Part shown: positions 3,684 through 23,651 of the stretch, in pieces | Layout: the number at the start of each line of letters is the position of its first letter | Numbering within the stretch: position 1 is the first letter of the stretch | Assembly (NCBI GenBank): GCA_021161905.1 | Contig: JAGGZT010000004.1 | Coordinates: 1-64,000, forward strand | Length of the DNA: 64,000 bases | Origin: Acidobacteriota bacterium | GTDB taxonomy: Bacteria; Acidobacteriota; B3-B38; Guanabaribacteriales; JAGGZT01 | Direction: 5' to 3' | Notes under the pieces: model-generated | Database searches by the model: none | What the model saw: the letters and a program-made list of their open reading frames with translations, nothing else | What the model was told of the DNA's origin: nothing | Position numbers and translations under genes: made by a program

Positions 3684-3694
3684 AATCCTCCCTC

Positions 3695-5675: not shown

Positions 5676-5699
5676 CTCAAGCTCCTTGTTCCTCAGAAT

Positions 5700-5854: not shown

Positions 5855-5864
5855 TGCAGGCATT

Positions 5865-6031: not shown

Positions 6032-7165
6032 TTAGCCCTCAATCTTGTAGAGGGCATAACGGTAGCCCCGTTCGTAATACTCGGCTATCAATTTAAGCTT
6101 AAAGTTTTCCAGGATGTAACGGCAAAATTTGTTCTGCTCCGGATCGTTCACATTGCACCAGAAGTTGTAGTGGAAATATATCCCCCCGCGAAACCGTTTT
6201 AACTTACTGGTAATGAAGGTTCTATTATTGAACACGAGGTAAGCCTGAGCGGAGCTCCTTTTAAAGAGGAGGAACATATTGGGATTGTGGGTGATGATCA
6301 GTGAATTATCGGGAACCATTCGGGCAAATTTCTTGGCGTATAGGTAGTCCATCCGGGCACCCCAAGCCTCCTCGCCAACCGCCCTCACCAACGGCAGAAA
6401 CCAGGTAAAGGCAAAGACGGTTATCACCAGGGGAACCCATTTGAGTCGTCCTCCCTTAAGCCTCTCCTGAAGGAGGGAGAGTCCGAGACCGGAAAGAACC
6501 GCAAGAGGAGCGTAGGAAAGAAGGGAGAAACGGACATCAGCTCCATATCGATAGCTCCCGGCATAAAAGGGAATAAATATCCCCCAGAAGAGGAGAAACC
6601 AACCGAAAGGAAGAAACTTTGCCCGCCATCTTTTTCCAAAGAAGAATCCCACTATAGCCAGAATGCTGAACAAGACCGGGAACCAGTGATTATCAAAGTA
6701 AAACCAACCGTTGGTTCGGAGGTTATAGTGCACATAGCTGAGGGCGAATTTAGGACCCCTGCTTCCCCAGGGCTCCCCGCCAACGGCAATGATATGAGCC
6801 AAGTGAGGGATGATTAAAAAGAAGGAAATCACTCCCATTTTGTAGATTCTCGACCTTATAAGCTCAGCAGGAGCAAGAAGAAGAATAGCTATTCCGAAAA
6901 CGAGGATAAGGAGAAACGATTCCGGACGGAACTGGCAGGCAAAAGGGAGAAGAACGAAGGCGAGAAAAAGAAGGGAGTTTTTTCTCTCCTTAAGGTAGAA
7001 GACAAGAAATAAAAGGGAGAAAACAGCAAGGGAAGCAGCTGAAGGTTCAACCGCGGTGGTGTTTGACCAGAGGAGATTCTCCGGAATAAGAAGATAGATG
7101 AGGGCAGAATAAATGCCGACCAAGAAGCTGTCGAAAAGGAGATAGGAGAGCAAAAACACACTCAA
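6032..7165 (-). CDS. ArnT/PMT-like membrane glycosyltransferase, C-terminal fragment (frameshifted)
   Basis: About 377 residues with eight or more hydrophobic segments followed by a soluble C-terminal tail with several aromatic residues. It is the continuation of the gene at 7192-7713: the frame stays open upstream to the T7 tract at 7239-7233, and adding one T joins the two into a single protein of about 561 residues, the size of GT39/GT83-type (ArnT, PMT_2) enzymes that move a sugar from a polyprenyl-phosphate donor on the outer face of the inner membrane. Acceptor and sugar are unknown. The ATG at 7165 is not a convincing native start because no ribosome site precedes it and the homologous sequence continues upstream. 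Confidence 0.7.
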   Translation of the reverse strand: MSVFLLSYLLFDSFLVGIYSALIYLLIPENLLWSNTTAVEPSAASLAVFSLLFLVFYLKERKNSLLFLAFVLLPFACQFRPESFLLILVFGIAILLLAPAELIRSRIYKMGVISFFLIIPHLAHIIAVGGEPWGSRGPKFALSYVHYNLRTNGWFYFDNHWFPVLFSILAIVGFFFGKRWRAKFLPFGWFLLFWGIFIPFYAGSYRYGADVRFSLLSYAPLAVLSGLGLSLLQERLKGGRLKWVPLVITVFAFTWFLPLVRAVGEEAWGARMDYLYAKKFARMVPDNSLIITHNPNMFLLFKRSSAQAYLVFNNRTFITSKLKRFRGGIYFHYNFWCNVNDPEQNKFCRYILENFKLKLIAEYYERGYRYALYKIEG

Positions 7166-7191
7166 AACAGCAAGACTGAAGAGGAGATTAT

Positions 7192-7713
7192 TCAGGATAT
7201 AGCCATAGATCTCGTTATCGCCAAAGATCCTGAAAAAAAGCTCACCAAATAGGGATAGCCATATGGCTCCTTATTATATTCTCCACTGAAACACTTAAAC
7301 TCCCCATATTCGTATGTCCCGTAATTGCACATCTGGGCTCTCTTGAGGTGGGCGAGGTTCTGAGCGACATTGAGGTATATCGTCTCATCATAGTAGATTC
7401 GGTGAATGCGAGGAGGAAGAAAAAGAGACATCAAGAATGAGCCGAGTACCAAAGCGAGGATTACATATCGTTCCTTCCTGGAGAATGAGATAAAGAGTCT
7501 CTTTATATGATCGAAGCTAATGATTATTCCAACGATGATGAGAACGAAGTTCACCTCAAGAACGATGGGGATGATGGTCTTCAACTCCTCCTTTATCCGA
7601 TGGGGGTTTCCCGAGGACAAAAGAAGAAGAAAGAAAAATACGCCAAGAAAATAAAGCAGGACAAAAATGAAAAATCTTATCCCTTTTTTTATCAAGCCCT
7701 TCTTTCCCTCCAT
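7192..7713 (-). CDS. ArnT/PMT-like membrane glycosyltransferase, N-terminal fragment (frameshifted)
   Basis: Encodes the N-terminal 165 or so residues: a cytoplasmic basic stretch, two to three membrane segments, and the first periplasmic loop with YYDETIYLNVAQNLA, the acidic D-E motif expected at the catalytic site of GT-C enzymes, then NKEPYGYPYLV, a loop typical of PMT_2 proteins. After the homopolymer at 7233-7239 the frame goes out and stops at 7192. Last gene of the 11556-6032 operon, 17 bases after the carbamoyltransferase. Confidence 0.7.
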   Translation of the reverse strand: MEGKKGLIKKGIRFFIFVLLYFLGVFFFLLLLSSGNPHRIKEELKTIIPIVLEVNFVLIIVGIIISFDHIKRLFISFSRKERYVILALVLGSFLMSLFLPPRIHRIYYDETIYLNVAQNLAHLKRAQMCNYGTYEYGEFKCFSGEYNKEPYGYPYLVSFFSGSLAITRSMAIS

Positions 7714-7730
7714 TACTCACCCTCCCCTCT

Positions 7731-9422
7731 TTATTCACCAAAGACCAAGAAATCACCGATTGCAAGGCAATCGCATCCGGTACGGACGAAGGTAGAAACA
7801 GCATCTTCAGGGGAGCAAACAATGGGCTCCCCATGGATATTGAAACTGGTATTCAAAACGACGGAAAGACCGGTAAGCTCCTTTACATAGCGCAGAAGCT
7901 TCCCGTAGCGGGAGTCCTCCTCGCAGACGATCTGGGGGCGGCAGGAAAGATCGATGCTTATCACCCCCTTCAGCCTGTTCTTCATCTCCTCCTTTATGAT
8001 GTAGGCAAAGGTCATAAATCTATCGGGACGCCCTTTCAAATTCTTGAAGCATTCCTTTGCATCCTCCACAAGGAGAGAGGGGCAAAAAGGCTGGTACCAA
8101 ACCCGTTTTTTGAGCCTAAGGTTCAAGGCGTCCTTTATCTCAAGGGAATCGGGACGAGCGAGGATGCTCCTTCCCCCAAGAGCACGAGGTCCTACCTCCA
8201 TCCGTCCCTGAAACCACATCACGATGTTTCCCTCTTTAATGAGCTCAGCCACCCTCCTCTCTATGTCCTCTACCCGCTGGTAATTCAACCTATGCCGTTT
8301 CAAGACTTCCTCTATCTCAGAAGGTGAGTAGTCCGGTCCTAAAAAGAGGTTCTCCAATCGATAGGAAGAGACCCCGTTAAGCTGATAATTAAGGTAAAAA
8401 GCTGCCCCAAGAGCAAGCCCTCCATCAGCCATATGGGGAAATACATAGCAATCGGAGACTTCAGGAAGGTCCCTTATCTTCATATTCAGCTTGATGTTCG
8501 AGGCAACACCACCGGCAAAGGCAACCCGTTTAAGCGATGTCTCCCCTATCGCATTTCTCACCAACTCAAGCACCTTGACCTCGATCGTCCTCTGAGCCAT
8601 ATAGGCAAACTGCTCTGGCGGGAAACACCAAAGAACCCTCCGAAGCTCCTTGAGCATCCCCAACGAGGAATAACGCGCCTTTACCTTAAGACCCTCCACC
8701 TTGAAAAAGTCGAGCAAGGGGTTTTTATCATCGGGCACTGGATAGGCATAATCGGCAAGCGCCATAACCTTCCCTTCATCCTCAAGCTCCCTCATATGGA
8801 GGAGGTTGGTTACATGCTCGAAGAAGATACCGAGGGAATCCTTACCTGAAATGAAGGAGAGAGGGCGAAGCTTCCCCTCTTCAAATACGCTCACCGTTCC
8901 TGAAAGCCCGTCTCCAATCCCATCGATGGTGAGAACAAGGGCACTATCGAACCCACTGGTGAAGGCAGCTCCTGCGGCATGGGCTAAGTGGTGATTCACG
9001 AAGTAAAGCCTGAAGTCAGAAAAACCAAGCCTTCTAAGCGCCTTCTTGATGGGGATGCCTCCGATCCATCTGTAGATGGGAAGGGGACCGAGTTCAGTCA
9101 ACCTGTATTTAGCTCGCTTCTTGATACCAGAGAAAAGGCTTGGCTGTTTCTTCCTCCTCCTTATCAGGTAATACTCCTCCTTAAAGGAAGGGAAAACGCG
9201 AGCCAATGTCTTTGCAAAATCGGAGGTGGAGATAGCGATATGCTTTATCTCCTCTGGATCGAGGGCAAGGCGTTCGAAGATCATCCTTATCGAACGCTCG
9301 GGAAAGGAGACCTCGAGCTTTCTCCTCGTCAGCCTCTCCTCATTTATAGCGAAGAGGACCTCATCTCCGCGGATAAGAGCGGCACCGGAATCGTGCCCGT
9401 CCCAGATACCGAGAATATACAT
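7731..9422 (-). CDS. NodU/CmcH-family carbamoyltransferase
   Basis: 563 residues, full length for the family. The N-terminal Kae1-like domain starts YILGIWDGHDSGAALI and has the metal-binding HHLAHAAGAA (about 143-152) and a DGIGDGLSGT nucleotide loop. The C-terminal YrdC-like domain has GRMEVGPRALGGRSILA and the LNTSFNIHGEPIVCSP segment. Such enzymes transfer a carbamoyl group from carbamoyl phosphate, through carbamoyl-AMP, to a hydroxyl of a sugar, antibiotic or lipid-linked glycan. Its neighbours (GT2, B12-radical SAM, ArnT-like) suggest that the acceptor is an envelope sugar, which is inference. It lies 18 bases after the radical SAM gene. Confidence 0.9.
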   Translation of the reverse strand: MYILGIWDGHDSGAALIRGDEVLFAINEERLTRRKLEVSFPERSIRMIFERLALDPEEIKHIAISTSDFAKTLARVFPSFKEEYYLIRRRKKQPSLFSGIKKRAKYRLTELGPLPIYRWIGGIPIKKALRRLGFSDFRLYFVNHHLAHAAGAAFTSGFDSALVLTIDGIGDGLSGTVSVFEEGKLRPLSFISGKDSLGIFFEHVTNLLHMRELEDEGKVMALADYAYPVPDDKNPLLDFFKVEGLKVKARYSSLGMLKELRRVLWCFPPEQFAYMAQRTIEVKVLELVRNAIGETSLKRVAFAGGVASNIKLNMKIRDLPEVSDCYVFPHMADGGLALGAAFYLNYQLNGVSSYRLENLFLGPDYSPSEIEEVLKRHRLNYQRVEDIERRVAELIKEGNIVMWFQGRMEVGPRALGGRSILARPDSLEIKDALNLRLKKRVWYQPFCPSLLVEDAKECFKNLKGRPDRFMTFAYIIKEEMKNRLKGVISIDLSCRPQIVCEEDSRYGKLLRYVKELTGLSVVLNTSFNIHGEPIVCSPEDAVSTFVRTGCDCLAIGDFLVFGE

Positions 9423-9440
9423 CGATCATTCCTCCAATTT

Positions 9441-10835
9441 TTAACCGAGGATATCGGACAGCTTCCTCAACAAACGCGAAAAAATACTCCTTCTCGCGCT
9501 CCTCAAAATCCCGAAAAAAACCCGGGGCTGAGAGTAAAACCTTCGATACGCCCTTCTCCTAAATTTAACGCAATCACTACGGGAAAAACCGGGAAGCTCC
9601 ATCACCGCCTGATGCTGACTGAACTCGGAAAATTCTCCCTTTATCCAACCCTCCTCGGTGGCGATGGTATAGAGCTCGGAGCCGGGAAAAGGGGCGGCAC
9701 AATAAAACTGGGCGAAATCGAGCCCCAAGGACTTAGAAAAAGCGATCGTCTCCTCTGCGGTATCCCTCGTTTCTCCGGGAAGACCGATGATGAAGTGTCC
9801 CACCACCTCAAGACCTGCCTCCTTGGCTAACCTCACCGCTCTTTCTATATCCTTTCTCGCTATCCCCTTCTTCGCCCTTCTCAATACCTCCTCGCTCGCC
9901 GACTCTATCCCGTAGCTTATCATAAAACAACCTGCCCTTCGCATCAGGGTAAGGAGCTCCTCATCCACCGTATCTACCCTGCTGTTTGCTGCCCAGCTTA
10001 TATCGAGCCCATTATCGATTATTGCCTGACAAAGAAGAGAGGCATACTCCCTATCGATGGTGAAGGTATCCGCCCAGAAGAGAAAATCCCGCACCCCGTA
10101 CCGGGCGATATCGTTTTCTATCTCCGAAATCACCCGGGGGACCGACCGTTTACGCACCTTCTTCCCATAATAAACACCAGTGGTACAAAAGGTGCACGGG
10201 TAAGGACATCCACGAACAGGGGCGACGATTAGAAACCGCCTTTCCTCCAGGGGAAGCCGATAACTATCGAGGTTCACCAGATGCCAGGCTGGATCGGGTA
10301 GAGCATCGAGGTCTTCGATAAACCCTCGCTGGGGGTTATGAACGATCTCCCCCCTCCTTCGATAGCTTATCCCTCTAACCTTTGATGGTTCGTGCCCCTG
10401 AGAAAGTGTCTCCACCAGCTCCTTCGCCGTCTCCTCTGGCTCATTCCTGATGACGAAATCGAGCGCTTCTTCCCTAAGGCATTCAGCAGGAAGGGCGGTA
10501 GGATGGGTACCGAAGATAGCGGTACGACAGCGAGGGACCACTTCCTTTATCATCCTCGCCAGAGCAAGGTCGTTCTTGATAGTGGGGGTCGCGGTTGACC
10601 AAATAGAGATGTTAGGGGAAAAATGAGCGATAACCTCTCTCAGCCTATCGAAAGAAACACCTTCTGCCGGGCAGTCGATGAGTTTAACCTGATGTCCCGC
10701 CTGCTCGAGGAGAGAAGCGACCATCGCCAGGGAAAGGGGAGGCCAAAGGACAGTCCACATACTCTGTTCCTGGGTGCACCTGCCCTCTCTGATAAACTTC
10801 CCTTCCGCCGGGGGATTGAGCAAAAGTATCTTCAT
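9441..10835 (-). CDS. B12-binding-domain radical SAM protein
   Basis: 464 residues. The N-terminal 150 residues form a cobalamin-binding-type Rossmann domain (MKILLLNPPAEG, then SLLEQAGHQVKLID). The radical SAM core has the cluster motif C210-PYP-C214-TF-C217, followed by FWADTFTID and YGIESASEEVL, typical of the class with SPASM-less C-termini. Members catalyse methylations, ring rearrangements or C-C bond formations on lipids, hopanoids and natural products; the specific reaction here cannot be read from sequence. Located between GT2 and carbamoyltransferase genes in one operon (gaps 30 and 18 bases). Confidence 0.88.
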   Translation of the reverse strand: MKILLLNPPAEGKFIREGRCTQEQSMWTVLWPPLSLAMVASLLEQAGHQVKLIDCPAEGVSFDRLREVIAHFSPNISIWSTATPTIKNDLALARMIKEVVPRCRTAIFGTHPTALPAECLREEALDFVIRNEPEETAKELVETLSQGHEPSKVRGISYRRRGEIVHNPQRGFIEDLDALPDPAWHLVNLDSYRLPLEERRFLIVAPVRGCPYPCTFCTTGVYYGKKVRKRSVPRVISEIENDIARYGVRDFLFWADTFTIDREYASLLCQAIIDNGLDISWAANSRVDTVDEELLTLMRRAGCFMISYGIESASEEVLRRAKKGIARKDIERAVRLAKEAGLEVVGHFIIGLPGETRDTAEETIAFSKSLGLDFAQFYCAAPFPGSELYTIATEEGWIKGEFSEFSQHQAVMELPGFSRSDCVKFRRRAYRRFYSQPRVFFGILRSARRSIFSRLLRKLSDILG

Positions 10836-10865
10836 TTCGGGAAAGATTGTAACTCAAATCTTTGA

Positions 10866-11556
10866 CTAAAAGAAAAGATATTTTATAAGCGAATAAACAT
10901 AACGAAACCAGACCCTTGAGAGACGGATGTTAGAAACTCCGTACCTTCGCTTATACTCATGAGCAGGAACCTCAGCCATCCGGTAGCCCTTTTTCAATGT
11001 CTTTATTATCATCTCCTGCTCTATGGTGGAGATGTTCTCCTTTAGGTCGAACTTCTTGAGGACTTCGGTCCTTATTGCTCGAAATCCATTCTGGCTTTCG
11101 CTAAGCCTCACCTTGAACCGCCAATTTATGCAGGCGATGATGAAAGAACTTCCCATCAAGCGGAGACATTCATCGAAGGTACCGTGAAGCTCGTTCGAGC
11201 CGCCCAGGAGCCGAGAGCCTGAGACATGATCCGCCTCTTTCTTTAGGATCGGTTCCACAAGCCTCGGGATATCATCTGGATCATGAGAGCCGTCAGCGTC
11301 CATAAAAACGGTAATCTCTGTTCTTATATGGGGAATCGCGCTTCGTATGGCATCGCCCTTTCCTCTTCGGTTATCCCTTATTACCTTTGCTCCCTTAGCA
11401 AGGGCGATGTTATAGGTATTGTCGGTGGAATGACCATCAACTACGATTACCTCACAGGCGTAATCCTTCACCCGCTCGATAAGCTCACCTATGGTTCTCT
11501 CCTCATTCTTCGCCGGTATTACAAACCGTTATTGATTTTCTTACTGCCTCTTCCAC
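10866..11556 (-). CDS. Family 2 glycosyltransferase (DPM1-like), one-base frameshift near the start
   Basis: The long open part (from 11471 downwards) encodes a GT2 fold with VIVVDGHSTDNT, RGKGDAIR, the metal-binding FMDADGSHDP and a QNGFRAI acceptor loop, as in polyprenyl-phosphate sugar transferases. The family N-terminus continues upstream as VIPAKNEERTIGELIERV to about 11522, then meets a stop. Removing one T from TTT at 11525-11523 joins it to GTG 11556, giving MEEAVRKSITVVIPAKNEE, a canonical GT2 start and about 229 residues in total. The GTG is only six bases from the -10 box, implying a leaderless message. First gene of the operon. Confidence 0.78.
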
Positions 11557-11671: not shown

Positions 11672-12907
11672 ATGAGGAGACGAGGTTTAATCATAGCGAT
11701 TTTTCTCCTATTCCTCATCCCCTTGCTCTCGATAGCTGGGGAGAGGGTTATTGCCATCAAAGGGGGTAAAATCTATACCGTAACCAAAGGAACGATAAAG
11801 AACGGGACCATTCTCATAAAGGGGAAAAAGATCGTAGCGGTTGGCAGGAATATCAGAATCCCTCAGGAAGCAGAGATCATAGACGCCAAGGGAAAAGTCA
11901 TCACTCCGGGCTTGGTGGATGCCCATTCCCACTTGGGCTTAGGACCGAGTGGAGGAGTAACCGAGGACAACGAGATGACCGACCCTGCCACCCCGCAACT
12001 GCGGATCATCGACTCGATAAACCCTTACGGCGAGGAACCGGACAAAGGTTGTTTCAGGAAAGCCTTAGCCGAGGGGGTAACCACCGTGATCTGCCGTCCG
12101 GGGAGTGGAAATGTCATCGGGGGGCAGGCAGCAGCGGTAAAGACCTATGGAAAGACAGTGGACGAGATAATAAGGAACTTCCCCTGCGATATGAAGATGG
12201 CGATGGGAAGAAAGAAGGGGACGGGCGGTTACCCGATGACCAAAATGGGCACCGCCTACATCATCAGGAAATACCTCCTCTTGGGAAGGGAATATCAGAA
12301 AAAACTTGAGGAATACGAGAAAGAGAAAAAGAAAAACCCAAAGGCAAAACCACCGAAGCGAGACCTCAAGGCAGAAGCGATGGCACTCGTCACCTCGGGG
12401 AGACTTCCAGTACACATCCATGTAATTGATGCCAATGACATAATGACCATCGTCCGGATAGCAACCGAGTTCGGTCTAAAAGATGTCTCCTTAGGACATG
12501 CGGAGGAGGCATACAAGGTGGCAAGAGAACTCGCCAAACACAACATCAAGGTGGTGGTTGGTCCCCGGGTCATCGTCTATGATGATGAGAACCATTTGAT
12601 AGACCTCGCTGAATACCTTAGGAAGGCGGGAGTTGAGGTCTCCATTATGACCGATGCCGATGTGGTTCAACAGGAGTACCTCCGCTATCAGGCAGCTCTT
12701 GCGGTAAAGTACGGTATGCCCTACGAGGAGGCTCTCCGTGCCATCACCCTTAATCCAGCGAAGCTCGCCGGCGTTGCCGATAAGGTAGGAAGCATCGAGC
12801 CGGGAAAACTGGCTGATATCGTCATATTCTCCGGCGATCCCTTCGATGTATTGAGTGGGGTGGAAAAGGTCTTCATCGAAGGGAAACTTGTCTATAAAGC
12901 AAAATAA
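11672..12907 (+). CDS. Exported amidohydrolase 1 (metal site intact)
   Basis: 411 residues with a signal peptide (basic start, hydrophobic residues 6-21, cleavage near SIAGE). The composite amidohydrolase fold follows: an N-terminal beta-sandwich ending KVITPGLVDAHSHLG with the HxH ligands H85 and H87, a RPGSGNVIGG loop, VHIHVIDAND and LGHAEEAYK supplying the later His ligands, and IMTDAD with the C-terminal Asp. All expected metal ligands are present. The family includes imidazolonepropionase-like and dipeptidase-like enzymes; the substrate is unknown but the location should be periplasmic. First of six related domains in five genes. Confidence 0.9.
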   Translation: MRRRGLIIAIFLLFLIPLLSIAGERVIAIKGGKIYTVTKGTIKNGTILIKGKKIVAVGRNIRIPQEAEIIDAKGKVITPGLVDAHSHLGLGPSGGVTEDNEMTDPATPQLRIIDSINPYGEEPDKGCFRKALAEGVTTVICRPGSGNVIGGQAAAVKTYGKTVDEIIRNFPCDMKMAMGRKKGTGGYPMTKMGTAYIIRKYLLLGREYQKKLEEYEKEKKKNPKAKPPKRDLKAEAMALVTSGRLPVHIHVIDANDIMTIVRIATEFGLKDVSLGHAEEAYKVARELAKHNIKVVVGPRVIVYDDENHLIDLAEYLRKAGVEVSIMTDADVVQQEYLRYQAALAVKYGMPYEEALRAITLNPAKLAGVADKVGSIEPGKLADIVIFSGDPFDVLSGVEKVFIEGKLVYKAK

Positions 12908-12919
12908 GGGGAGAGTAAA

Positions 12920-14167
12920 ATGAGAGTTAAAGAATTGAAAATAATCGCGGCAATCCTATTCCTTTTCTCCCTCATTGCATATCCCTCCGAGAGAGCGACG
13001 GTCATTATTGGGGGGAAGGTGATCACCGTGACCAAGGGGATCATAGAGAAGGGGAAAATAGTAATTAGAGATGGGAAGATCGTCGCGGTAGGGAAAAATG
13101 TGAAGATACCAAAGGGAGCGATGAGGATAGATGCGAGGGGAAAGGTGATCCTTCCCGGTCTCATCGAGGCGGATACTACTCTCGGCTTGGGAGGAATGAG
13201 AGGAGGAGACGCCAACGAGGCGACCAAGCCAAACACCGCTGAGCTCTCGGTACTCGATGCCATCAATCCCTTCGACAAGAACATTGAGCGCGCCCTGGCG
13301 GGCGGAATAACCACTGCCCTCATCAATCCGGGGAGAATAAATGTTATCGGAGGCCAAGGAGCAGTGGTAAAGCTCTCAGGGAGAACGGTATCGGAGATGG
13401 TACTTTTAGCTCCTGCTGGAGTAAAGTTCTCCTTAGGCGAAGGACCCAAATTCTACTATGGGAAGAAGGGACGTCTTCCCTCTACCAGAATGGGGGCTGC
13501 CTATATAGTAAGGAAGGCTCTCCTCGATGCCAGGGATTATCTAAAGGAATGGGAGGACTATCAAGAAGCGAAGAAGGAGGGGAAAGACGCTAAAGAACCG
13601 AGAAAGAATCTCTCGCTTGAGCCATTGGCTAAACTCTTAAAGGGTGAGTTAACCGCCTATATCGAATGCTACCGAGCTGACGACATTATGACCGCCCTGA
13701 GGTTGATCGATGAGTTCAAAATTAAAAAGGCAGTCCTCGTTGGGGTAAGCGATGGGTACTTGGTAGCTGATGAGATCGCAAAGAGGAAGGTGCCGGTCAT
13801 CATCACCCCAGCAGGGGTAGAACCTCATAGGATGGAGACGGAGCGAATAAACATAAAGAACGCCGCCATTCTCCACAAGGCAGGGGTAAAGGTTATCCTC
13901 CACGCTTCTTATTCTATGGGGGTCGGGGCGGTAAGGGAGCTCCCCCTCCTCTCTGCCTTCGCTATAAAAGGCGGGCTTCCCCGAGAAGAGGCGCTTAAAG
14001 GGATAACCATCTATCCCGCAGAGGTCCTTGGGGTAAGTGATAGGATTGGAAGCATTGAGCCAGAGAAAGATGCCGATCTCGTTATCTTTTCGGGAGATCC
14101 CTTCTTCTATCGTAGCCGGGTGGAAAAGGTTCTGATAAACGGGAAAATAGTCTACTCTTTAAAATAA
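12920..14167 (+). CDS. Exported amidohydrolase paralogue 2 (metal ligands lost)
   Basis: 415 residues, signal peptide in the first 22 or so. It aligns along its whole length with the gene before it (KVITVTKG, KVILPGLIEAD, PGRINVIGGQGAVVK, GSIEPEKDADLVIFSGDPF). However the HxH position is EADTT, the strand-5 His position is AYIECYRADD, the strand-6 His is replaced in VGVSDGYL, and the strand-8 Asp position is HASYS. All ligand positions are therefore altered, so it is probably a non-catalytic subunit or partner. It follows the first gene by 12 bases with its own GGGGAG site. Confidence 0.88.
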   Translation: MRVKELKIIAAILFLFSLIAYPSERATVIIGGKVITVTKGIIEKGKIVIRDGKIVAVGKNVKIPKGAMRIDARGKVILPGLIEADTTLGLGGMRGGDANEATKPNTAELSVLDAINPFDKNIERALAGGITTALINPGRINVIGGQGAVVKLSGRTVSEMVLLAPAGVKFSLGEGPKFYYGKKGRLPSTRMGAAYIVRKALLDARDYLKEWEDYQEAKKEGKDAKEPRKNLSLEPLAKLLKGELTAYIECYRADDIMTALRLIDEFKIKKAVLVGVSDGYLVADEIAKRKVPVIITPAGVEPHRMETERINIKNAAILHKAGVKVILHASYSMGVGAVRELPLLSAFAIKGGLPREEALKGITIYPAEVLGVSDRIGSIEPEKDADLVIFSGDPFFYRSRVEKVLINGKIVYSLK

Positions 14168-14171
14168 GGAG

Positions 14172-14192
14172 AGAGGGAATCCCCCCTCTTTT
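14172..14192 (+). terminator. Weak terminator-like hairpin
   Basis: AGAGGG (14172-14177) pairs with CCCTCT (14184-14189) across a six-base loop and is followed by a short T-rich stretch. It sits just after the second amidohydrolase stop codon. Stem is short, so partial termination is more likely than full. Confidence 0.4.
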
Positions 14193-14217
14193 CCTTTCCG
14201 TTAAAGACCATTTTTCG

Positions 14218-14247
14218 TTGTTAAGGGGCTTTCCTATGAGGTATAAT
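14218..14247 (+). promoter_or_regulatory. Possible internal promoter before amidohydrolase 3
   Basis: TTGTTA (14218-14223), 18-base spacer, TATAAT (14242-14247), about 50 bases upstream of the third gene. Together with the hairpin before it this would split the array into two transcription units. Confidence 0.5.
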
Positions 14248-14298
14248 TGTTTGTTTAACACAAAATACCTGTAATCCCATAATCAAGGGAGGTAGCCT

Positions 14299-15546
14299 AT
14301 GAAATATAGGTCTATTTTGGTAGCGACTCTGGCGATCATCCTCCTCCCCTTGTGGCTGATGGCTCAGAACCTCTACATAAAGGGAGGGACGATCATCACC
14401 GTCACCAAGGGGACAATTAAAGGAGGAGCCATCCTTATCAAAAAAGGAAAGATCGCTGCGGTGGGGAGGAATGTTAAATGTCCTCCCGGGGTAAAGGTGA
14501 TTGATGCTAAAGGGAAATACATCATCCCAGGGATAATCGACGCCCATTCCCATATGGCACTTGACGGCGATATTAACGAAGCGACCAACCCAGTTACTGC
14601 CGAAGTAAGGATGAGGGATGCCATCGACTTTGACAATCCGGTGATCCTCCAGGCGCTCGGTGGAGGGGTGGCGGCGGCAAAGCTGATGCATGGAAGCGCC
14701 AATGTAATCGGCGGTCTCAATGTAGTGGTAAAGCTCAAATGGGGGAAACCACCTGAAGAGTGGTTTATCCCTGACGCCCACAAACAACTTAAGATGGCTT
14801 ATGGTGAGAACCCAAAACGGGTCTATGGTTCCCGAGGACAAATGCCCTCGACCAGAATGGGGAACGCTTATGCGCTGAGGAACGCAATGATCCAGGCGAA
14901 GGAGTATATGAGGAAGTGGGCGGAATATGAAAAGGCAAAGAAAGAGGGAAAAGATGCCAAGAGGCCGAAACGGGATTTGAGGCTCGAGACCTTAGCCGAT
15001 CTCCTTCGGGGTAAATACACCGTCGATTTCCATTGCTATCGTGCCGATGGGATCGCCAACCTCCTTTCGATAGCTGATGAGTTCGGTTTCCGGGTAGAGG
15101 TGTTGAGCCATGCCCTCGAGGGATATAAGATCCCGGATATAATAAAAAGTCATAACGCATCGGTCTCCACCTTTGCTGACGGCTGGGGTTATAAGATGGA
15201 GGCGTTCGATGGCATACCCTATATGGTACCCCTTCTCTTCCGTTACGGGGTAAATGTACTGGTAAGCTCGGACTCGGACAACACCATCAGAAGGCTCTAT
15301 ATAGAGGCCTCCAAGGCGATGAAGTACGGCGACCTCACCCCTGATGAAGCACTTAGGTTGATAACTATAAACCCAGCAAAGGCGCTTGGGCTCGACCACC
15401 GGATGGGAAGCATCGAGGTAGGCAAGGATGGAGATATCGCCATCTTCGACCGCCATCCAATGGATACCTTTACCAAATGCGTGATGACCATCATCGAGGG
15501 CGAGGTTTACTTCGACATCAACAAATATGCTTCCTCTCCTAAATGA
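14299..15546 (+). CDS. Exported amidohydrolase 3 (metal site intact)
   Basis: 415 residues with a signal peptide ending near LWLMAQN. HxH is present in IIDAHSHMALDGD, the strand-5 His in VDFHCYRAD, strand-6 His in LSHALEGYK and the strand-8 Asp in VSSDSDN, so a competent metal centre is expected. It shares the conserved DINEATNPVTAEVRMRDAIDFDNP segment and the GSANVIGG loop with its neighbours. The C-terminal GSIEVGKDGDIAIFDRHP closes the beta-sandwich. Ribosome site GGGAGG. Substrate unknown. Confidence 0.9.
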   Translation: MKYRSILVATLAIILLPLWLMAQNLYIKGGTIITVTKGTIKGGAILIKKGKIAAVGRNVKCPPGVKVIDAKGKYIIPGIIDAHSHMALDGDINEATNPVTAEVRMRDAIDFDNPVILQALGGGVAAAKLMHGSANVIGGLNVVVKLKWGKPPEEWFIPDAHKQLKMAYGENPKRVYGSRGQMPSTRMGNAYALRNAMIQAKEYMRKWAEYEKAKKEGKDAKRPKRDLRLETLADLLRGKYTVDFHCYRADGIANLLSIADEFGFRVEVLSHALEGYKIPDIIKSHNASVSTFADGWGYKMEAFDGIPYMVPLLFRYGVNVLVSSDSDNTIRRLYIEASKAMKYGDLTPDEALRLITINPAKALGLDHRMGSIEVGKDGDIAIFDRHPMDTFTKCVMTIIEGEVYFDINKYASSPK

Positions 15547-15558
15547 TGGAGGAATAAG

Positions 15559-16872
15559 ATGAGAACAAATAAACTATCAAAAACGCTGGTGCTTATCGCC
15601 TTTTTCTTTCTTCTTGCTACAAGCACCTTTGCTGACGAGAAGCCGATCCTGATCAAGGGAGGTACTATCGTCCCCGTGACCAAACCCATCATAAAGAAGG
15701 GAGACATCCTCATAAAGGATGGAAAAATCGTCCAAATGGGAAGAAGGATCAAAGCGCCCCGCGGAGCCAGGGTGATAGACGCAAGAGGGTTATACATCTA
15801 CCCCGGGATGATCGACGCCTACAGTAGCCTGGGAATGGTTGAGGTAGGAAGCGTTTCCGCCACTGTGGATACCAACGAGACAACGAAAAAGATAACCCCC
15901 TTCCTCTCGGTGCTCGATGCCATCGATCCCGACTCTGCTCCGATAGGGGTAACCCGGGTAAACGGAATAACCACCGCTCTGGTATCTCCTGGCGCAGCCA
16001 ACCCAATAGCGGGCAAAGCAGCGGTGATCGATCTTGCCGGGCGCACCGTTGACGAAATGGTTTTGGCGCCGGATGTAGCGATGATCTTTTCCTTCACCAA
16101 AGGTAGCAGGGGCTACGGAAGCAGGGGAAGAGGGGGATATCCCTCAACGAGAATGGGGATTGCTGCTCTAATCAGACAAACATTGATCGATGCGGAAGAC
16201 TACCTTAAAAAGATCGAAACCTGGGAGAAAAAGGGAAAAAAGGGACCGAAGCCACCGAGAAATACCACCTATGAGGCGCTCATACCGGTATTAAAGGGAG
16301 AGATGCCCGTCATCGCCAATGTGCGGGAGGCAAGGGAGATAAGGGTGGCGCTCGAGATAGCCGATGCCTTCCATCTCAAGCTCATCCTCTTAAATGCCAA
16401 TGAATGCGACAAAATGATAGAAAAGATCAAGGAGCGGAATATCCCCATCCTTCTGGGAAACATCTTCACCAATCCCGATGAAACTCAGCCCTACGACTTC
16501 TACTACAAGCTACCCCTCAGGCTCTATCGAAACGGCATCAAGTTCGCCATCTTCGTCGGCGGTGCCCATTCGGTGAGGAACCTTCCCTACTCCGCAGCGG
16601 TGGCAGTCGCTTACGGACTCCCCTATGAAGAAGGGTTAAAGTCGATAACCATCTATCCGGCGGAGATATTGGGGATCGCTGACAAGGTGGGAAGCATCGA
16701 GAAGGGCAAGATCGCCAACTTGGTAGTCTGGACCGGGGATCCCCTTCAGGTGAGATCGCGGGTAAAACATCTGATCATCAAAGGGAAGCTCGTCCCCCTC
16801 ACCAACCACGATACCGAGCTCAGGGATAGGTATCTCCACCTCTACAAACATTTAAAGATAAAACTCCATTAA
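15559..16872 (+). CDS. Exported amidohydrolase paralogue 4 (metal ligands lost)
   Basis: 437 residues with a signal peptide (hydrophobic residues 10-24, then TFADEK). Overall fold motifs are kept (GLYIYPGMIDAYSS, PGAANPIAGKAAV, GSIEKGKIANLVVWTGDP), but HxH reads AYSS, the strand-5 site reads IANVREARE, the strand-6 site LLNANECDK and the strand-8 site VGGAHS. It is therefore a second predicted non-catalytic paralogue, placed right after an intact one, 12 bases downstream with a GGAGG site. It carries a short charged C-terminal extension of about 20 residues. Confidence 0.88.
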   Translation: MRTNKLSKTLVLIAFFFLLATSTFADEKPILIKGGTIVPVTKPIIKKGDILIKDGKIVQMGRRIKAPRGARVIDARGLYIYPGMIDAYSSLGMVEVGSVSATVDTNETTKKITPFLSVLDAIDPDSAPIGVTRVNGITTALVSPGAANPIAGKAAVIDLAGRTVDEMVLAPDVAMIFSFTKGSRGYGSRGRGGYPSTRMGIAALIRQTLIDAEDYLKKIETWEKKGKKGPKPPRNTTYEALIPVLKGEMPVIANVREAREIRVALEIADAFHLKLILLNANECDKMIEKIKERNIPILLGNIFTNPDETQPYDFYYKLPLRLYRNGIKFAIFVGGAHSVRNLPYSAAVAVAYGLPYEEGLKSITIYPAEILGIADKVGSIEKGKIANLVVWTGDPLQVRSRVKHLIIKGKLVPLTNHDTELRDRYLHLYKHLKIKLH

Positions 16873-16885
16873 TGGGGAGGGACCG

Positions 16886-19369
16886 ATGAAAAAGGCTAAA
16901 GTAACCCTTATCGCCTTAGCTCTTCTTTTCTCCCTTCTTCTCTCCCCCGCCTCTTCCAAAGACGAAGGGATAATCGCCATCAAGGGGAAGATCGTTTATA
17001 CCGCTTCAGGTGCTCCCATCAAAAACGGGGTAATCCTGATCAAGGGAGGAAAGATCATAAAGGTAGGATCGAGGCTAAAAATACCAAAGGGCGCGGCCGT
17101 CTATACCGCTAAGGTGGTGATGCCTGGGTTGGTCGAGGCTCACTCCCACTTTGCGGTGATGTCCGACGCCAACGAGGCCACCAATCCCATCACCCCCGGG
17201 ATGAGGGTATCGGATGCGATAAACATCAGCGATCCTTATTTCTATTATCCTCTCTCAGGTGGAGTGACCACCATCGTAACAAGACCGGGAAGTGCCAATG
17301 TGATCGGAGGATTAAGCGCAGCTCTCAAGCTAAAGCACAATGTCCCTCTTGATAAGATGATCATCAAGGATCCCTGCGACTTCAAGATGGCGCTCGAAGG
17401 GAATCCGATAGGCGTTTACGGAAGACGGGGAAGGATGCCAGCGACGATGATGGGATGCTATTACCTTGCCCGCAAGACCTTCCTCAGGGGCCAGGAATAC
17501 ATCAAAAAGTGGGAGAAATACGAGAAAGAGAAGAAGAAAAACCCAAACGCCATACCGCCGAAGCGCGATCTCGCCTTAGAGGCGGTAGCGATGGCGCTTA
17601 AGCGAGAGATACCGGTTCACATCCACACCGCAAAGGCGAACGAGGTGGATGCTGGCCTTCGCCTTTTTGACGAATTTCATCTTGACGGGAGCTTTGCCCA
17701 CGCCTATTGGGGCTATCTTATCGCCGATGAATTGGGGAAGAGGAAGGAGGTCCTCGTCCTTGGTCCGGAGATGTTCTTCCACTACTTCGGGGAAAAGGGA
17801 ATAATGAACTCCGCTGCTATCCTGGCAGCAAAGGGGGCGAAGATAGCGGTCCAGACAGATGCAAATGCCTACGGGGTAAAGTACCTTCGAAATACCGCCG
17901 CTCTCTGTGTCCGATATGGACTCCCTGAGGATGTAGCTATAAAGGCGATAACCATAAACGCTGCCGATGCGGTAAACCTCGATGACCGGGTAGGAAGCAT
18001 CGAGCCGGGAAAGGACGCCGATATCGTCCTTATGGACGGCGATCCCTTCGAGGTCTTGACCACGGTAGAAAAGGTCTTCGTCGATGGTAAGCTCGAATTC
18101 GAGAACAAGAAGCATTACCATACCATTGCCGATCTCAAACTCGCCCCTCCCAAGATAAGCCACAAAAAGATAAAAATAAGAAGAAAAAGTGAGAAGACCA
18201 TCGCAATCACCGGAGGAAGGATCATTACCGTCAGCAACGGAGTGATAGATAGGGGGACGATACTGATCGAGAACGGGAAGATAAAAGCGGTGGGAAGAAG
18301 GATCCACATTCCCAAAGAAGCAACGGTAATCGATGCTTCGGGCAAGGTGATAATGCCGGGGATCGTCGCTGCTGCCTCCTCCCTTGGGCTCTATTCCGAC
18401 TGGAAGAGGATAACCCACACCGATGAAGCGGTAAACCCAGTGACTCCGGCAATGGAGGTAATCCACGCCATAGACCCCTTCTTCCCCACGGTACGAGATG
18501 TCCTCGTCTCTGGGGTGACCACCGCCAACGTCAATCCGGGTGCTGCCAATGTGCTCGGCGGAAGAGGGGCAGTCATAAAGACAGTGGGAAGAACGGTGGA
18601 GGAGATGCTGGTCAAGAAACACAGTATGATGATGGCCTCCTACTGTTCCCGCCCCAAATCGGTCTATGGCTCGAAGGGAAGGATGCCAGCAACCAGAATG
18701 GCTATCGCCTATCTCCTCCGGGACAATTTCCTCAAAGCCAAAGAATATAAAGAGAGGCTCGAAAAGGCGAAAAAAGAAGGAAGGGAGATACACCGTGACC
18801 TAAACCTTGAGGCGCTCATCCCGGTGATCGAAGGTAAGATGCCGTTGATGGTCGAAGCGGAGAGGAAAAGCGACATCCTAAGGGCGATAGAGATAGCCGA
18901 TGAGTTTAAGATAAAACTGATAATTCTCGGAGGAGCGGAAGCACATCTGGTAGCTGACCAGCTCGCGGAGCGAAATATACCGGTGGTTATCACCCATCTC
19001 AGGGAGCACAGGAGGACCAATGAGACGAAGAGATTCAGAACCGATATGGCAGCACTCCTGGAAAAGAAAGGGGTGAAGGTTGGATTTATGTTGGACGACG
19101 CCAGATGGCCCATAAGCACCTTAGGCCATCAGGATGGAAACCTCCTGATGAACGCCGCCCTATGTTTCAAGCTCGGGATGAGCGAGGAAGGAGCGATAAA
19201 GGCACTCACCATCTATCCAGCAGAGTTCCTCAATATAGCGGACCGGCTAGGAAGCATCGAGAAAGGGAAGGATGCTGATATCATCATCCTCAAGGGGCAC
19301 CCATTCCTCCTGAAGGCAGTACCAGAATTGGTAATGGTCAACGGAAAGATAGCCTATAAGGAGAGATAA
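16886..19369 (+). CDS. Exported double-domain amidohydrolase 5 (intact plus inactive halves)
   Basis: 827 residues: a signal peptide (1-24) and two complete amidohydrolase units of about 400 residues joined by a lysine-rich linker near residues 415-435. The first unit is intact: VEAHSHFAVMSD, VHIHTAKANE, FAHAYWGY, VQTDANA. The second has lost every ligand position: VAAASSLGLYSD, LMVEAERKSD, LGGAEAHLV, LDDARWP. It reproduces, as a fusion, the intact-then-inactive order of the separate gene pairs upstream. The gene starts 14 bases after the previous one. Substrate unknown; a heterodimer-like enzyme is the simplest reading. Confidence 0.9.
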   Translation: MKKAKVTLIALALLFSLLLSPASSKDEGIIAIKGKIVYTASGAPIKNGVILIKGGKIIKVGSRLKIPKGAAVYTAKVVMPGLVEAHSHFAVMSDANEATNPITPGMRVSDAINISDPYFYYPLSGGVTTIVTRPGSANVIGGLSAALKLKHNVPLDKMIIKDPCDFKMALEGNPIGVYGRRGRMPATMMGCYYLARKTFLRGQEYIKKWEKYEKEKKKNPNAIPPKRDLALEAVAMALKREIPVHIHTAKANEVDAGLRLFDEFHLDGSFAHAYWGYLIADELGKRKEVLVLGPEMFFHYFGEKGIMNSAAILAAKGAKIAVQTDANAYGVKYLRNTAALCVRYGLPEDVAIKAITINAADAVNLDDRVGSIEPGKDADIVLMDGDPFEVLTTVEKVFVDGKLEFENKKHYHTIADLKLAPPKISHKKIKIRRKSEKTIAITGGRIITVSNGVIDRGTILIENGKIKAVGRRIHIPKEATVIDASGKVIMPGIVAAASSLGLYSDWKRITHTDEAVNPVTPAMEVIHAIDPFFPTVRDVLVSGVTTANVNPGAANVLGGRGAVIKTVGRTVEEMLVKKHSMMMASYCSRPKSVYGSKGRMPATRMAIAYLLRDNFLKAKEYKERLEKAKKEGREIHRDLNLEALIPVIEGKMPLMVEAERKSDILRAIEIADEFKIKLIILGGAEAHLVADQLAERNIPVVITHLREHRRTNETKRFRTDMAALLEKKGVKVGFMLDDARWPISTLGHQDGNLLMNAALCFKLGMSEEGAIKALTIYPAEFLNIADRLGSIEKGKDADIIILKGHPFLLKAVPELVMVNGKIAYKER

Positions 19370-19382: not shown

Positions 19383-19414
19383 GGGGGGTGGCAAATGCCA
19401 CCCCCCCTTTTTTT
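19383..19414. terminator. Strong bidirectional rho-independent terminator
   Basis: GGGGGGTGGC (19383-19392), AAAT loop, GCCACCCCCC, then a T7 run (19408-19414). On the minus strand the same stem is followed by TTTT. It separates the amidohydrolase array from the convergent V/A-ATPase operon. Confidence 0.92.
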
Positions 19415-19465: not shown

Positions 19466-19921
19466 TTACTTGGCGGTCACCAAGAAGAGCGAGACCATAA
19501 GCCCCAAAATGGCATAAAGCTCGGGGAAAACCCCCATAGTGAGCACCTTTCCTAACGCGGTCTCATCGCTCTTTATCAGCTCGATCCCGGTAACGCAAAC
19601 CCTCGCCTGATATAAAGCGGAGAAGAAACCAACCACACTCACCGGAATGGCAGAGCAGAGGAAATAAAGCCCGGTGTAGAAGTCTATTGTACTAAGGGTG
19701 CCGAGCTTCCGGAGGAGCATAAAGGCGATAACAAATCCGTAGATACCCTGGGAGCTGGGAAGCGCCGCCGCCGGAAGAAAACGACCAAACCGCCTGGGGA
19801 ACTGTTCCAGCGCTCCGTGGGTAGCGTTTCCCGTCATCAGAAGCCCCAGCGCTGAACCAATGCCAGGGAAAAGAAACGCAAACACCACACCGAGATAAGC
19901 AAGAAATATTCCTAATGTCAT
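19466..19921 (-). CDS. ntpK: V/A-type ATPase rotor subunit K
   Basis: 151 residues forming two helical hairpins (four membrane helices), the duplicated proteolipid of the V/A rotor ring. Helix 2 has LPSSQGIYGF (L54, S57, Q58), helix 3 has ALYQAR (Q105) and helix 4 has FPELYAI with the essential carboxylate E134. In Enterococcus NtpK the equivalent L/T/Q/Q/E residues bind Na+, so sodium coupling is suggested. It overlaps the I subunit gene by ATGA and is the last gene of the operon. Confidence 0.93.
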   Translation of the reverse strand: MTLGIFLAYLGVVFAFLFPGIGSALGLLMTGNATHGALEQFPRRFGRFLPAAALPSSQGIYGFVIAFMLLRKLGTLSTIDFYTGLYFLCSAIPVSVVGFFSALYQARVCVTGIELIKSDETALGKVLTMGVFPELYAILGLMVSLFLVTAK

Positions 19922-21699
19922 AGCCCTTCCTTTCCTTTAACCGGTTTCAATTTCCGAAATGATTCGAAGTTTAACCCTCCACCTTCGTAAAATTGCTTAT
20001 AAAACTCCACAAATTGGAGCCTTAAGCTATGAACAAAACCGCTTATCAAGCCGAGGGCAATGTTGCCCCCATGGCCCAGAACGAGGATCAATATAGCAAG
20101 GGGCCAACCAATATAAGGGGCGGACTTGAACTGTGCCGCCATATCGTTCACCACCGAGGCAATAATACCGGTGGCAACCGAAAGGGCGAAGAGTCGAGAA
20201 TAAGAGAGAAGATCGCCCAAGAAACCAGTAGCCCCATAAAGACCCCATAAGCCGAGGCCTATCTGCTTAAACACCCCTTCACCATAAGCGGAGAGACCAA
20301 TGACCAAGATCGCCCCGAGCACTATGAAACCAAATCCCACATCCTTCGCCCCTAAATAAACCGCTGTTGCCCCCCAGATTATCCCCAGATAACCAAGATT
20401 GCCGATCGCCCGAAGCGGTAAACCATCCTTATACCACTTGTAAGCCTTCAGGATCACCCCTACCGAGATCTGGATGAGCCCAAAGAAAAGGGCAAGGGCA
20501 AACAGCCTCATCTTATTCGAAGGGTCGAATATTATGAGTCTCCGTATCGGCGAATTGGGCGCCCAATTTATACTGAAGATGGTTCCGGTAGCCAAGCCGA
20601 AACCGGTAACAAACAGGGTGAGCATCCGGAAGAGCTTCAGCCCCTTCTCGAGCCCTGGAGTGAGTTTCTTCTTAAAGAGTTTCAAGGCAAGCGAGCTTAG
20701 AAGGAAGAGGATCAACCCATAGCCAGCATCGCCGAGACACATCCCGAAGAAGATGGCAAAGAACGGGGCAACGGCGACAGTGGTATCAATTTCATCGTAC
20801 GATGGCTGTGAATGGAGCTCGGTAATAAGCTGGAATGGTTCAAGAACCGGCTTATTCTTCAGGATAACCGGCACATCCTCACCCTTCTTCGGGGGCTCGA
20901 CAAGCCACGCCAAACGGAAGGAGGAAAGGGCGCTCTTGATCTCAGGCACCCATTCTGCCGGGGTCCAACCCTGAAGCATAAAGACGCTTCCCTCCCTCCC
21001 CAGCATCCCCTTCGCCTCCTCAAAGGCTATCCGATCGAGAAGTTCTACCTCAACCTCCCTAAGGAAAGGAAGATAAGAAGATAAAAGGGCGATCTCCTTC
21101 TCAACCTCGGCGATCTCTTTCTCAACCTCGGCGATCTCCTGCTCGATATCCGTCAGGTCCTGCTCCGGTAACTTGGCTTCGGCATAACCCTCGATCTTCT
21201 CTTTGTAGGAGAAAACCACCAGATAAACCATATCACCGGTCTGATAGGTAACCTTGTATACCTTATCCTTAAGGTCGAGCCGAGCAAACTGGGAACGAGG
21301 CAGGATAAAGAACTGAAGAGTAATCCCTCTTTCACCAAGCTCCTTTATCTCGGAAAGGGAGATCCCTCCCCAGGGGATCCATCTCTCCCTCAATTTAAGG
21401 AGTGATTTTTTCTTTACCTTGAGTTCCTCTTTCTTCTCAAGTAGAGATTCAAGCTTCTCTCCTATCTCCTTCCAATCTACCTCCTCTTTCTTCTTCCTCC
21501 TTTTAGCCTTCTTCTCGTAGGGGGTGAGGATTTCCATTATCCTTCGGAGATTAGCGAGGTCTTCGAGGAGTTCTTCCTTAGGCTTCCCCTTAGTCACCGG
21601 GATCAGATGGAGCTTTCCTATCTCCTGGAGCTTCCCCAGTACCTTCTCCTCATCATCCTTCAAGCCAACGATGGTAATCTTCCTCATCGGGACGATCAT
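19918..21699 (-). CDS. ntpI: V/A-type ATPase membrane stator subunit I
   Basis: 593 residues. The N-terminal 290 or so are soluble with long coiled-coil arms (lysine- and glutamate-rich around residues 60-100 and 180-210), and the C-terminal half has about seven membrane helices that form the ion half-channels. It is the 'a'-type subunit coupling ion flow to rotation of the K ring and holding the peripheral stalks. It shares one base with the D gene and overlaps K by four bases. Confidence 0.93.
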   Translation of the reverse strand: MIVPMRKITIVGLKDDEEKVLGKLQEIGKLHLIPVTKGKPKEELLEDLANLRRIMEILTPYEKKAKRRKKKEEVDWKEIGEKLESLLEKKEELKVKKKSLLKLRERWIPWGGISLSEIKELGERGITLQFFILPRSQFARLDLKDKVYKVTYQTGDMVYLVVFSYKEKIEGYAEAKLPEQDLTDIEQEIAEVEKEIAEVEKEIALLSSYLPFLREVEVELLDRIAFEEAKGMLGREGSVFMLQGWTPAEWVPEIKSALSSFRLAWLVEPPKKGEDVPVILKNKPVLEPFQLITELHSQPSYDEIDTTVAVAPFFAIFFGMCLGDAGYGLILFLLSSLALKLFKKKLTPGLEKGLKLFRMLTLFVTGFGLATGTIFSINWAPNSPIRRLIIFDPSNKMRLFALALFFGLIQISVGVILKAYKWYKDGLPLRAIGNLGYLGIIWGATAVYLGAKDVGFGFIVLGAILVIGLSAYGEGVFKQIGLGLWGLYGATGFLGDLLSYSRLFALSVATGIIASVVNDMAAQFKSAPYIGWPLAILILVLGHGGNIALGLISGFVHSLRLQFVEFYKQFYEGGGLNFESFRKLKPVKGKEGL

Positions 21700-22331
21700 C
21701 AGGCTACCTCCGTAAGAAGAGCACCACCGGTGGTACCGGCATATTTCTGTTTCGCCACCTTGGCAATTACCGTGGTCTCCCTCTCTCTATCCCCTAACCG
21801 CTCGTAAAGATAGGTCTCTGCCTCAAGTAGTTCTGGTATTAACTTCTTATCAAAGAGGTTTATCCGCTGGGTTACCTTCTTCAACTCGGCTGCGAGCACC
21901 CGGTAAGCCTCTTCGAGGACGATGATATTATAGTGAAGCCTCTTTATCTCCTTCACCGTAGCAAGGACATAGTCGAAAACCGGAGGAGTGGCTGCTAAAC
22001 TGTATTTTCCCTCCTCGAAAACCACATCCTTAAACAACTTCACTCTAACTCCACCTATCACCCCAGGAACGAGGATAACCTTTTTTGTAGTAATAAGCTT
22101 TGCCGGATCTTTATTGATCAGGACAAGCGCCTCAGAGGAAAGGTCTTTCACCCTCTCTTCCATCTTCCTCTTAAGCCCTTCTATTTCCCGCCTCAGCTGA
22201 TTGCACTCGAGGGTAAGCTGCTTCTGCTTCAGCTCAAGGATGGGTATCGCCCGCTCTAACCTCTCCCTCTTCTTTCTCAGCTCGAGGAGGGTTCCCCTTG
22301 TTTTCGCCAGGGTGGAGACCTCTATCGGCAT
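21699..22331 (-). CDS. ntpD: V/A-type ATPase central shaft subunit D
   Basis: 210 residues, mostly two long helices (residues 5-70 and 130-200) with a short central beta region, as in the central rotor stalk of V/A ATPases. It starts IEVSTLAKTRGTLLELRKKRERLE, close to the family start in which an N-terminal helix runs into the A3B3 head. It abuts the B subunit gene directly. Confidence 0.93.
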   Translation of the reverse strand: MPIEVSTLAKTRGTLLELRKKRERLERAIPILELKQKQLTLECNQLRREIEGLKRKMEERVKDLSSEALVLINKDPAKLITTKKVILVPGVIGGVRVKLFKDVVFEEGKYSLAATPPVFDYVLATVKEIKRLHYNIIVLEEAYRVLAAELKKVTQRINLFDKKLIPELLEAETYLYERLGDRERETTVIAKVAKQKYAGTTGGALLTEVA

Positions 22332-23651
22332 CTACGCCGCCTCCTTCCTCCGATAGAACTGGTCGCTTATCTCCTTCCTTATACCAAGCACCTCAAGCGG
22401 GAGAATGGATATGAGATCCCAAGCGAGATCCAAGGTTTCCGTCATTGTTCGATTCTGATGTACTGGTAAGAACTCATTCTCGAATAGATCGCCGAACTTG
22501 AGGAACTTTTTGTCTATCTCCTGGGTTATCTCAAGCCCCATCGAAAGCTTCTCCTTGAGATCGAGGGAGTAAGAATAAGCCTTGATACAGGCATCCATAA
22601 TCGCCGGGTGATCGTGACGCGTCTCCTTCCCTATCACCAACTGCTTGAGCCGGGAAAGCGATTTAAGCACCATCACCTTATCATGCTCAATATAAATTTG
22701 TCCCTCAGTGATATAACCGGTGAGGTCGGGGACGGGATGGGTGATATCGCCATTCGGGACCGAGACCACCCCCAAGATGGTAACTGAACCCAGGTCTCCT
22801 CCCAAGTTGGTCGCCCGCTCGTAAACCTGAGCCAACTTGGTATAAAGATCGCCAGGATAGCCCGCCCGAGCCGGGATCTTATCCTGAGCGTTTGCCACTT
22901 CCATCAACGCATTGGCAAAGTTGAGCATATCGGAAAGAACGATAAACACATGCTTCCCCTCAAGGGCAAGCTGTTCTCCAATGGCGCAACAGATATGAGG
23001 AACATTGAGCCGTTCGATCGAGGATTCCGAAGCGAGGTTTATAATCATAATGGTCCGCTCAGGAGCCTCATTGAGCACCTCCTGGAAATAAAGGTACTCC
23101 TCATACTTAAGACCAATACCCCCGAAGATGACTACAAAGGGTTTTCGGTCGTTTACCTCTGCCTGACGGATGATCCTCCCCACTACCTTATTCACATCCT
23201 CCTCAGGTCTCTTGAAGATGGGTATCTTCTGGCTCCGGACAATGGTATTCGCCCCGTCAATGCCGGGGATCCCGGTCTGGATATAACCTGAACCCATCTT
23301 CCTCACTGTAGGGTTGATCACCGAACCAATAACGGGAACGAGCTTGCCCGAAGTGATTGGTGGCTTACCATCTATCGGCTCGAATACCCCGTTGAATCTG
23401 CGCCCGAGAAGAAGCTCTGAATCGTAGGGGATCATCAGTGGGCGACCAGTGAAATAAACTGGCTGACGGGTGCTCATCCCAAGTGTCCCCCTGAGGGACT
23501 GGATATAAACGGTATCACCAGCGAGCTTCACTACCTGACCAATCCCATAGCCGGGGAAATGCGCTATCTCCCGATTACCTATTCCCATCGTCCCCTTTAT
23601 CTCCGCTATAGGACCGGCTATCTGTCTGATCTCGGTATATATCTTCTTCAT
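22332..23651 (-). CDS. ntpB: V/A-type ATPase subunit B (non-catalytic)
   Basis: 439 residues, normal for B. The head forms an A3B3 hexamer. It lacks a Walker A motif, as expected, and keeps IFGGIGLKYEEYLYFQ, the LSDMLNFANALMEVANAQDKIPARAGYPGDLYTKLAQVYERA region and VVSVPNGDITHPVPDLTGYITEGQI. Its start overlaps the A gene stop by four bases. Confidence 0.95.
   Translation of the reverse strand: MKKIYTEIRQIAGPIAEIKGTMGIGNREIAHFPGYGIGQVVKLAGDTVYIQSLRGTLGMSTRQPVYFTGRPLMIPYDSELLLGRRFNGVFEPIDGKPPITSGKLVPVIGSVINPTVRKMGSGYIQTGIPGIDGANTIVRSQKIPIFKRPEEDVNKVVGRIIRQAEVNDRKPFVVIFGGIGLKYEEYLYFQEVLNEAPERTIMIINLASESSIERLNVPHICCAIGEQLALEGKHVFIVLSDMLNFANALMEVANAQDKIPARAGYPGDLYTKLAQVYERATNLGGDLGSVTILGVVSVPNGDITHPVPDLTGYITEGQIYIEHDKVMVLKSLSRLKQLVIGKETRHDHPAIMDACIKAYSYSLDLKEKLSMGLEITQEIDKKFLKFGDLFENEFLPVHQNRTMTETLDLAWDLISILPLEVLGIRKEISDQFYRRKEAA

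Follow-up and report, generated by a model that had tools for sequence, protein, structure and literature searches.

The window, by which we mean the whole 64,000-nucleotide stretch of Acidobacteriota DNA that was analysed, carries an array that appears to encode three exported amidohydrolases. Each would consist of a catalytic subunit and a subunit without a metal site, and the two most likely form an obligate heteromer in the periplasm. The obligate partnership of enzyme and pseudoenzyme is well supported by the evolution of the family, and from this we infer a physical complex. Each computational test applied to this interpretation came out in its favour.

The array occupies positions 11672-19369 on the plus strand. 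Five tandem genes with six homologous domains had been proposed for this region, and all five open reading frames were recovered there, on the plus strand, with the six domains (about 400 residues each) aligning to the first, D1, along their full length with 40-47% identity. The domains run intact, dead, intact, dead and then intact and dead within one polypeptide (D1/D2/D3/D4/D5=D6), the last reading frame being a two-domain fusion. The intact D1 (411 aa, 11672-12907) is followed after 12 bases by its dead partner D2 (415 aa, 12920-14167), and the intact D3 of the second pair (415 aa, 14299-15546) is followed, again after 12 bases, by its dead partner D4 (437 aa, 15559-16872). D5 (16886-18112) and D6 (18170-19369) are the intact N-terminal and the dead C-terminal half of the 827-aa fusion. 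Reading frames are open in all copies, and a Shine-Dalgarno-like sequence lies 5′ of each of the five. Only 12-13 bases separate the members of a pair, or the fusion from the gene before it, compared with 131 bases between D2 and D3. Because this longer gap contains a terminator-like hairpin (14168-14193) that ends in a short pyrimidine tail, together with a promoter-like site 5′ of D3 (TTGTTA-18-TATAAT, 14218-14247), and because a strong terminator-like hairpin with a T run lies 3′ of D6 (19383-19406), D1-D2 and D3-D4-D5D6 are probably two transcription units. All three signals are on the plus strand; the two in the gap are consensus matches only, and since hairpins and promoter-like sites are about as numerous by chance, the argument for these three lies in their location between genes.

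The neighbours of the array (carbamoyltransferase, radical SAM, glycosyltransferase and V-type ATPase genes), all on the opposite strand, gave no clue to its function. Genes for a carbamoyltransferase, a B12-binding radical SAM protein and a glycosyltransferase (7731-11471, minus strand) are divergent from the array and are perhaps a surface-polysaccharide or secondary-metabolite cluster. On the other side a V/A-type ATPase subunit operon adjoins it (19466-27062, minus strand), in a genome with LPS-export genes. The window also contains a class A RNase P RNA (53522-53886) and a tRNA-Phe (58041-58116), both on the minus strand.

The original prediction was that the intact domains keep an HxH motif with later His and Asp residues. 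The alignment bore this out and added the β4 Lys: the full six-residue amidohydrolase site (HxH, β4 Lys, His, His, Asp) is present in D1 (H85 H87 K175 H250 H276 D328), D3 (H83 H85 K165 H245 H271 D325) and D5 (H86 H88 K167 H247 H272 D325). At most one of the six residues is left in each of D2 (D85 T87 K169 E249 G275 S330), D4 (Y88 S90 I176 N254 N279 G335) and D6 (A497 S499 M583 E657 G682 D737), and the four His positions are kept in none of them. The residues that do persist are the β4 Lys of D2 (K169) and the Asp at the strand-8 column of D6 (D737). The dead copies had been described as devoid of HxH and of the strand-5, -6 and -8 ligands; this holds for HxH and for the strand-5 and -6 His of all three, but not for the strand-8 ligand of D6. 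Throughout the family, five ligand columns show no variation among 151 intact copies. The β4 Lys, which occupies the position of the bridging carboxylated Lys of binuclear amidohydrolases, is found in 150 of the 151 (the remaining one reads X) and is gone from most dead copies. N100, S145 and K157 (D1 numbering), near-invariant in intact copies, are likewise missing from the dead ones.

All five proteins match Pfam PF01979 (amidohydrolase superfamily) with more than 25 bits, above the curated score. The nearest solved structure is Thermotoga maritima 3OOQ (TM0814-like), with a sequence match of 1.7e-76 that is far ahead of all others, and the (β/α)8 barrel and small β-sandwich are as in 3OOQ over about 390 columns. 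The AlphaFold model of the D5=D6 fusion, built from 19 natural fusions of which two are identical, had a pLDDT of 89 and a pTM of 0.89, and that of dead D2 a pLDDT of 88. In a fold search against 3OOQ the TM was 0.95 for the fusion model and 0.93 for D2 alone. These models give a confident prediction of both barrels of D5=D6, and probably of how the two are placed relative to each other, and the dead copies are predicted to retain the amidohydrolase fold. The fold motifs proposed to be common to all six domains are consistent with this: the domains align over their full length, and what the dead copies conserve (glycines, prolines and the GSIExGK region) is the fold. The closest relatives are TM0814-like by both sequence and fold matches and not imidazolonepropionase-like, as had been suggested. 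Against the imidazolonepropionase HutI model (TIGR01224) the best single domain, D1, scored 76.6 bits and the fusion 96.6, versus an equivalog cut-off of 298, and against the Xaa-Pro dipeptidase model (NF051886) scores were 46-119 bits versus a cut-off of 500; both assignments were rejected.

The same pairing recurs in other genomes. In mixed loci from six phyla, a dead copy directly follows the intact copy, as a separate gene or fused to it, in 84 of 87 cases, the exceptions being L132 (at a contig end), L213 and Clostridium polynesiense. This recurrence excludes a chance origin of the pairing, and synteny and phylogeny together show intact/dead pairs across phyla; a lack of pairing in them, which the original prediction had named as a refutation, did not come true. 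Within Acidobacteriota, the phylum of the window, 121 of 247 genomes at least 90% complete contain the family, and none contains exactly one copy. For other phyla, where prevalence is based on the homologous loci found and on 26 whole genomes, Bacillota, archaea, Actinomycetota and Thermotogota mostly have a single intact gene without a signal peptide. Intact-dead or dead-intact-dead arrangements are found in Acidobacteriota/Aminicenantota, Bacteroidota, Planctomycetota, Gemmatimonadota, Latescibacterota and a Caulobacter (the L076 type). In such loci the genes are separate or fused in various combinations, with natural intact=dead fusions in many loci, Planctomycetota included, and with a second dead copy 5′ of the intact one in many. 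Some genomes have extra dead copies, and at L136 a lone dead copy stands apart from the intact one.

Several loci depart from the simple pair. L091 (Planctomycetota, 1-10801) is a nine-domain array with one fully intact domain and one that has four of the five ligands, and in the similar array of L230 (2599-13766) dead copies flank a run of three intact ones. In L066, L192, L193, L197 and L199 (L066 and L193 are identical in their array genes) the intact=dead fusion gene has behind it another dead gene, which belongs to a separate clade; the third domain of these loci has ligand columns such as GDQQG and the highest dN/dS seen (0.22). Three Clostridium loci (L094, 8832-11152; L227, 5751-8038; L229, 5697-8017) carry a dead-then-intact pair without signal peptides, in the order opposite to that of the diderm pairs, and probably represent a second, independent origin of the dead partner.

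Export goes with pairing in this family. Of 77 paired intact copies without an upstream fusion, 69 have a hydrophobic N-terminus, versus 3 of 69 unpaired ones, and these three are of the paired kind, with a partner that is incomplete or off the contig. All five array proteins have a hydrophobic N-terminal signal (a heuristic call for the intact ones). Because of these signals, and because the window also encodes SecD, an LptC/LptD-like protein and a TolB-like protein, export of the array proteins to the periplasm is plausible; the N-termini of the array and of its paired relatives thus lend support to the earlier proposal of exported proteins.

We propose that each intact/dead pair (D1/D2, D3/D4, D5/D6) would assemble in the periplasm as an obligate heteromer. 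The intact barrel would hold a binuclear metal centre made up of the HxH of strand 1, a probably carboxylated Lys of strand 4, the His of strands 5 and 6 and the Asp of strand 8, and this centre would activate water to cleave a small amide, which may be a peptide. Its dead counterpart would stand in for a second catalytic subunit within a dimer or a larger complex, where it may serve folding, stability, shaping of the active-site entrance or substrate selection. We infer the metal number, the substrate and the role of the dead half. That the substrate is of peptide type is a guess, made from the S9 peptidase genes of the genome and from S9 and M20 peptidase genes near some relatives. The 2.09-Mb genome has 13 S9 peptidases; of 94 loci, 14 (several of them close relatives) have an S9 gene no more than 5 kb away, versus about 4-5 expected, as estimated from their density in 30 genomes, and M20 genes lie near 7 loci.

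Alternatively, the dead copies could be separate periplasmic binding proteins, for instance for the substrate or a peptide, that form no complex with the enzymes and whose genes are merely co-transcribed with theirs. We consider this unlikely. Intact=dead fusions in several phyla and the fixed gene order favour contact between the partners, even though the genes are unfused in many loci, and the relative placement of the two barrels is confident in the fused model (pTM 0.89). The dead barrels do keep their fold and are under selection, and some genomes have extra copies of them, as might be expected of binding proteins, but the columns of the former pocket are very variable, unlike those of a conserved binding site.

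The same columns bear on a second alternative, that the dead copies are diverged enzymes that bind metal or catalyse through other residues. Of the ligand columns, three lie at the 93rd-99th percentile of variability among the 82 following dead copies, in 57 of which the strand-6 His is replaced by Gly. A conserved replacement metal site seems to be absent, because the ligand columns of the dead copies rank among the most variable of the protein; column variability revealed no alternative ligand set conserved among the 82. Metal binding by other residues, which the original prediction had named as a finding that would overturn it, did not come true. The β4 Lys of D2, the strand-8 Asp of D6 and a Glu that recurs at the strand-5 column within the D2 lineage are what speaks for such diverged enzymes, a reading that we regard as quite improbable.

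A maximum-likelihood tree built without the ligand columns placed the pairs of the window in three lineages, each of which also occurs as a pair elsewhere. The sister family has D1/D2 and a fused D5/D6; D1/D2 is present in two further families as well, D3/D4 in one further family, and the D5/D6 fusion in Ca. Saccharicenans and relatives of it. A single clade of all six window domains was rejected (AU test, p about 1e-88). Because of these two results the array is a set of old pairs put together, and not the product of local alternating duplication. The regular alternation first pointed out is thus real as an order, but it reflects three ancient pair lineages side by side and not a repeating design. 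A clade of the intact and dead members of one type was rejected for D3+D4 (AU test, p 7e-6) and D5+D6 (p 0.007) and not for D1+D2 (p 0.10). Intact copies as one clade were not rejected (p 0.233; the best tree requires 3 changes), so that one ancient origin of all dead copies is neither rejected nor shown.

Intact and dead partners have parallel histories. Their identity matrices are correlated with r 0.86 (permuted maximum 0.11), and in genomes with several pairs the best hits of the partners agree in 451 of 585 cases, whereas 1000 within-genome shuffles gave at most 335. Part of this agreement could come from physical linkage alone, and the mirror-tree result is no proof of contact, because adjacent genes are co-inherited even where their products do not touch. 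In close relatives, dN/dS was 0.04-0.22 for dead copies and 0.03-0.19 for their intact partners; because the two are equally low, the dead copies are maintained proteins under purifying selection. That they are instead degenerating pseudogenes left by recent local duplication of their neighbours is very improbable: the homologues do stand in tandem, but the frames are open throughout, the dead copies equal their partners in having a dN/dS far below 1, and the D3+D4, D5+D6 and six-domain clades were rejected, if not D1+D2.

For the enzyme/pseudoenzyme heteromer, a simple 1:1 composition is not certain, because in many loci a further dead copy precedes the intact one. Counting against an obligate partner are the single intact homologues of Bacillota and archaea, which do without a dead copy, and the lone dead copy at L136. 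A broader reading, which we put forward tentatively and hold to be somewhat doubtful, is that these are phylum-spanning exported amidohydrolases unable to work without dead subunits, including dead-intact-dead heterotrimers with two different dead subunits, and that this dependence is tied to a move from cytoplasm to envelope.

A precedent for the dead half is the pseudo-dihydroorotase of Pseudomonas aeruginosa aspartate transcarbamoylase (ATCase), an amidohydrolase-superfamily subunit without a metal site that is inactive yet required for the activity and assembly of its partner (PMC7053772). In ATCase the active subunit is a transcarbamoylase with a different fold, whereas the dead subunits of the array are paired with homologous intact amidohydrolases, and both halves are exported. 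3OOQ resembles the intact copies of the array in sequence family, whole-chain fold and ligand set, but its Bacillota and archaeal relatives are mostly single and without a signal peptide, while the kind found in the window is exported and paired with dead copies. The CRMP or dihydropyrimidinase-related proteins are inactive amidohydrolase-superfamily paralogues that oligomerise. Their structures (2GSE, 4B90) gave weak sequence matches only to the array, and they differ in belonging to a eukaryotic cytosolic hydantoinase branch without operon pairing with an intact partner. HutI and the Xaa-Pro and arginine dipeptidases (2G3F, 2QS8, 3MTW, 3N2C) share the superfamily and the general active-site layout, but their fold matches show only 14-18% identity, and the array proteins score far below the curated family cut-offs. 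In the openly accessible literature we found no paper on 3OOQ/TM0814 or on inactive or tandem amidohydrolase pairs, and no published description of working-plus-dead pairing of exported amidohydrolases was found.

Pseudoenzymes have mostly been studied singly and largely in eukaryotes. Here a bacterial family offers the pairing of a working with a dead copy across many lineages and phyla, correlated with export and fused in several. Its natural series of single enzyme, pair, triplet and fusion lets one ask why an enzyme retains a dead twin. It also carries a warning for annotation: half or more of the family's proteins in such genomes are probably not enzymes.
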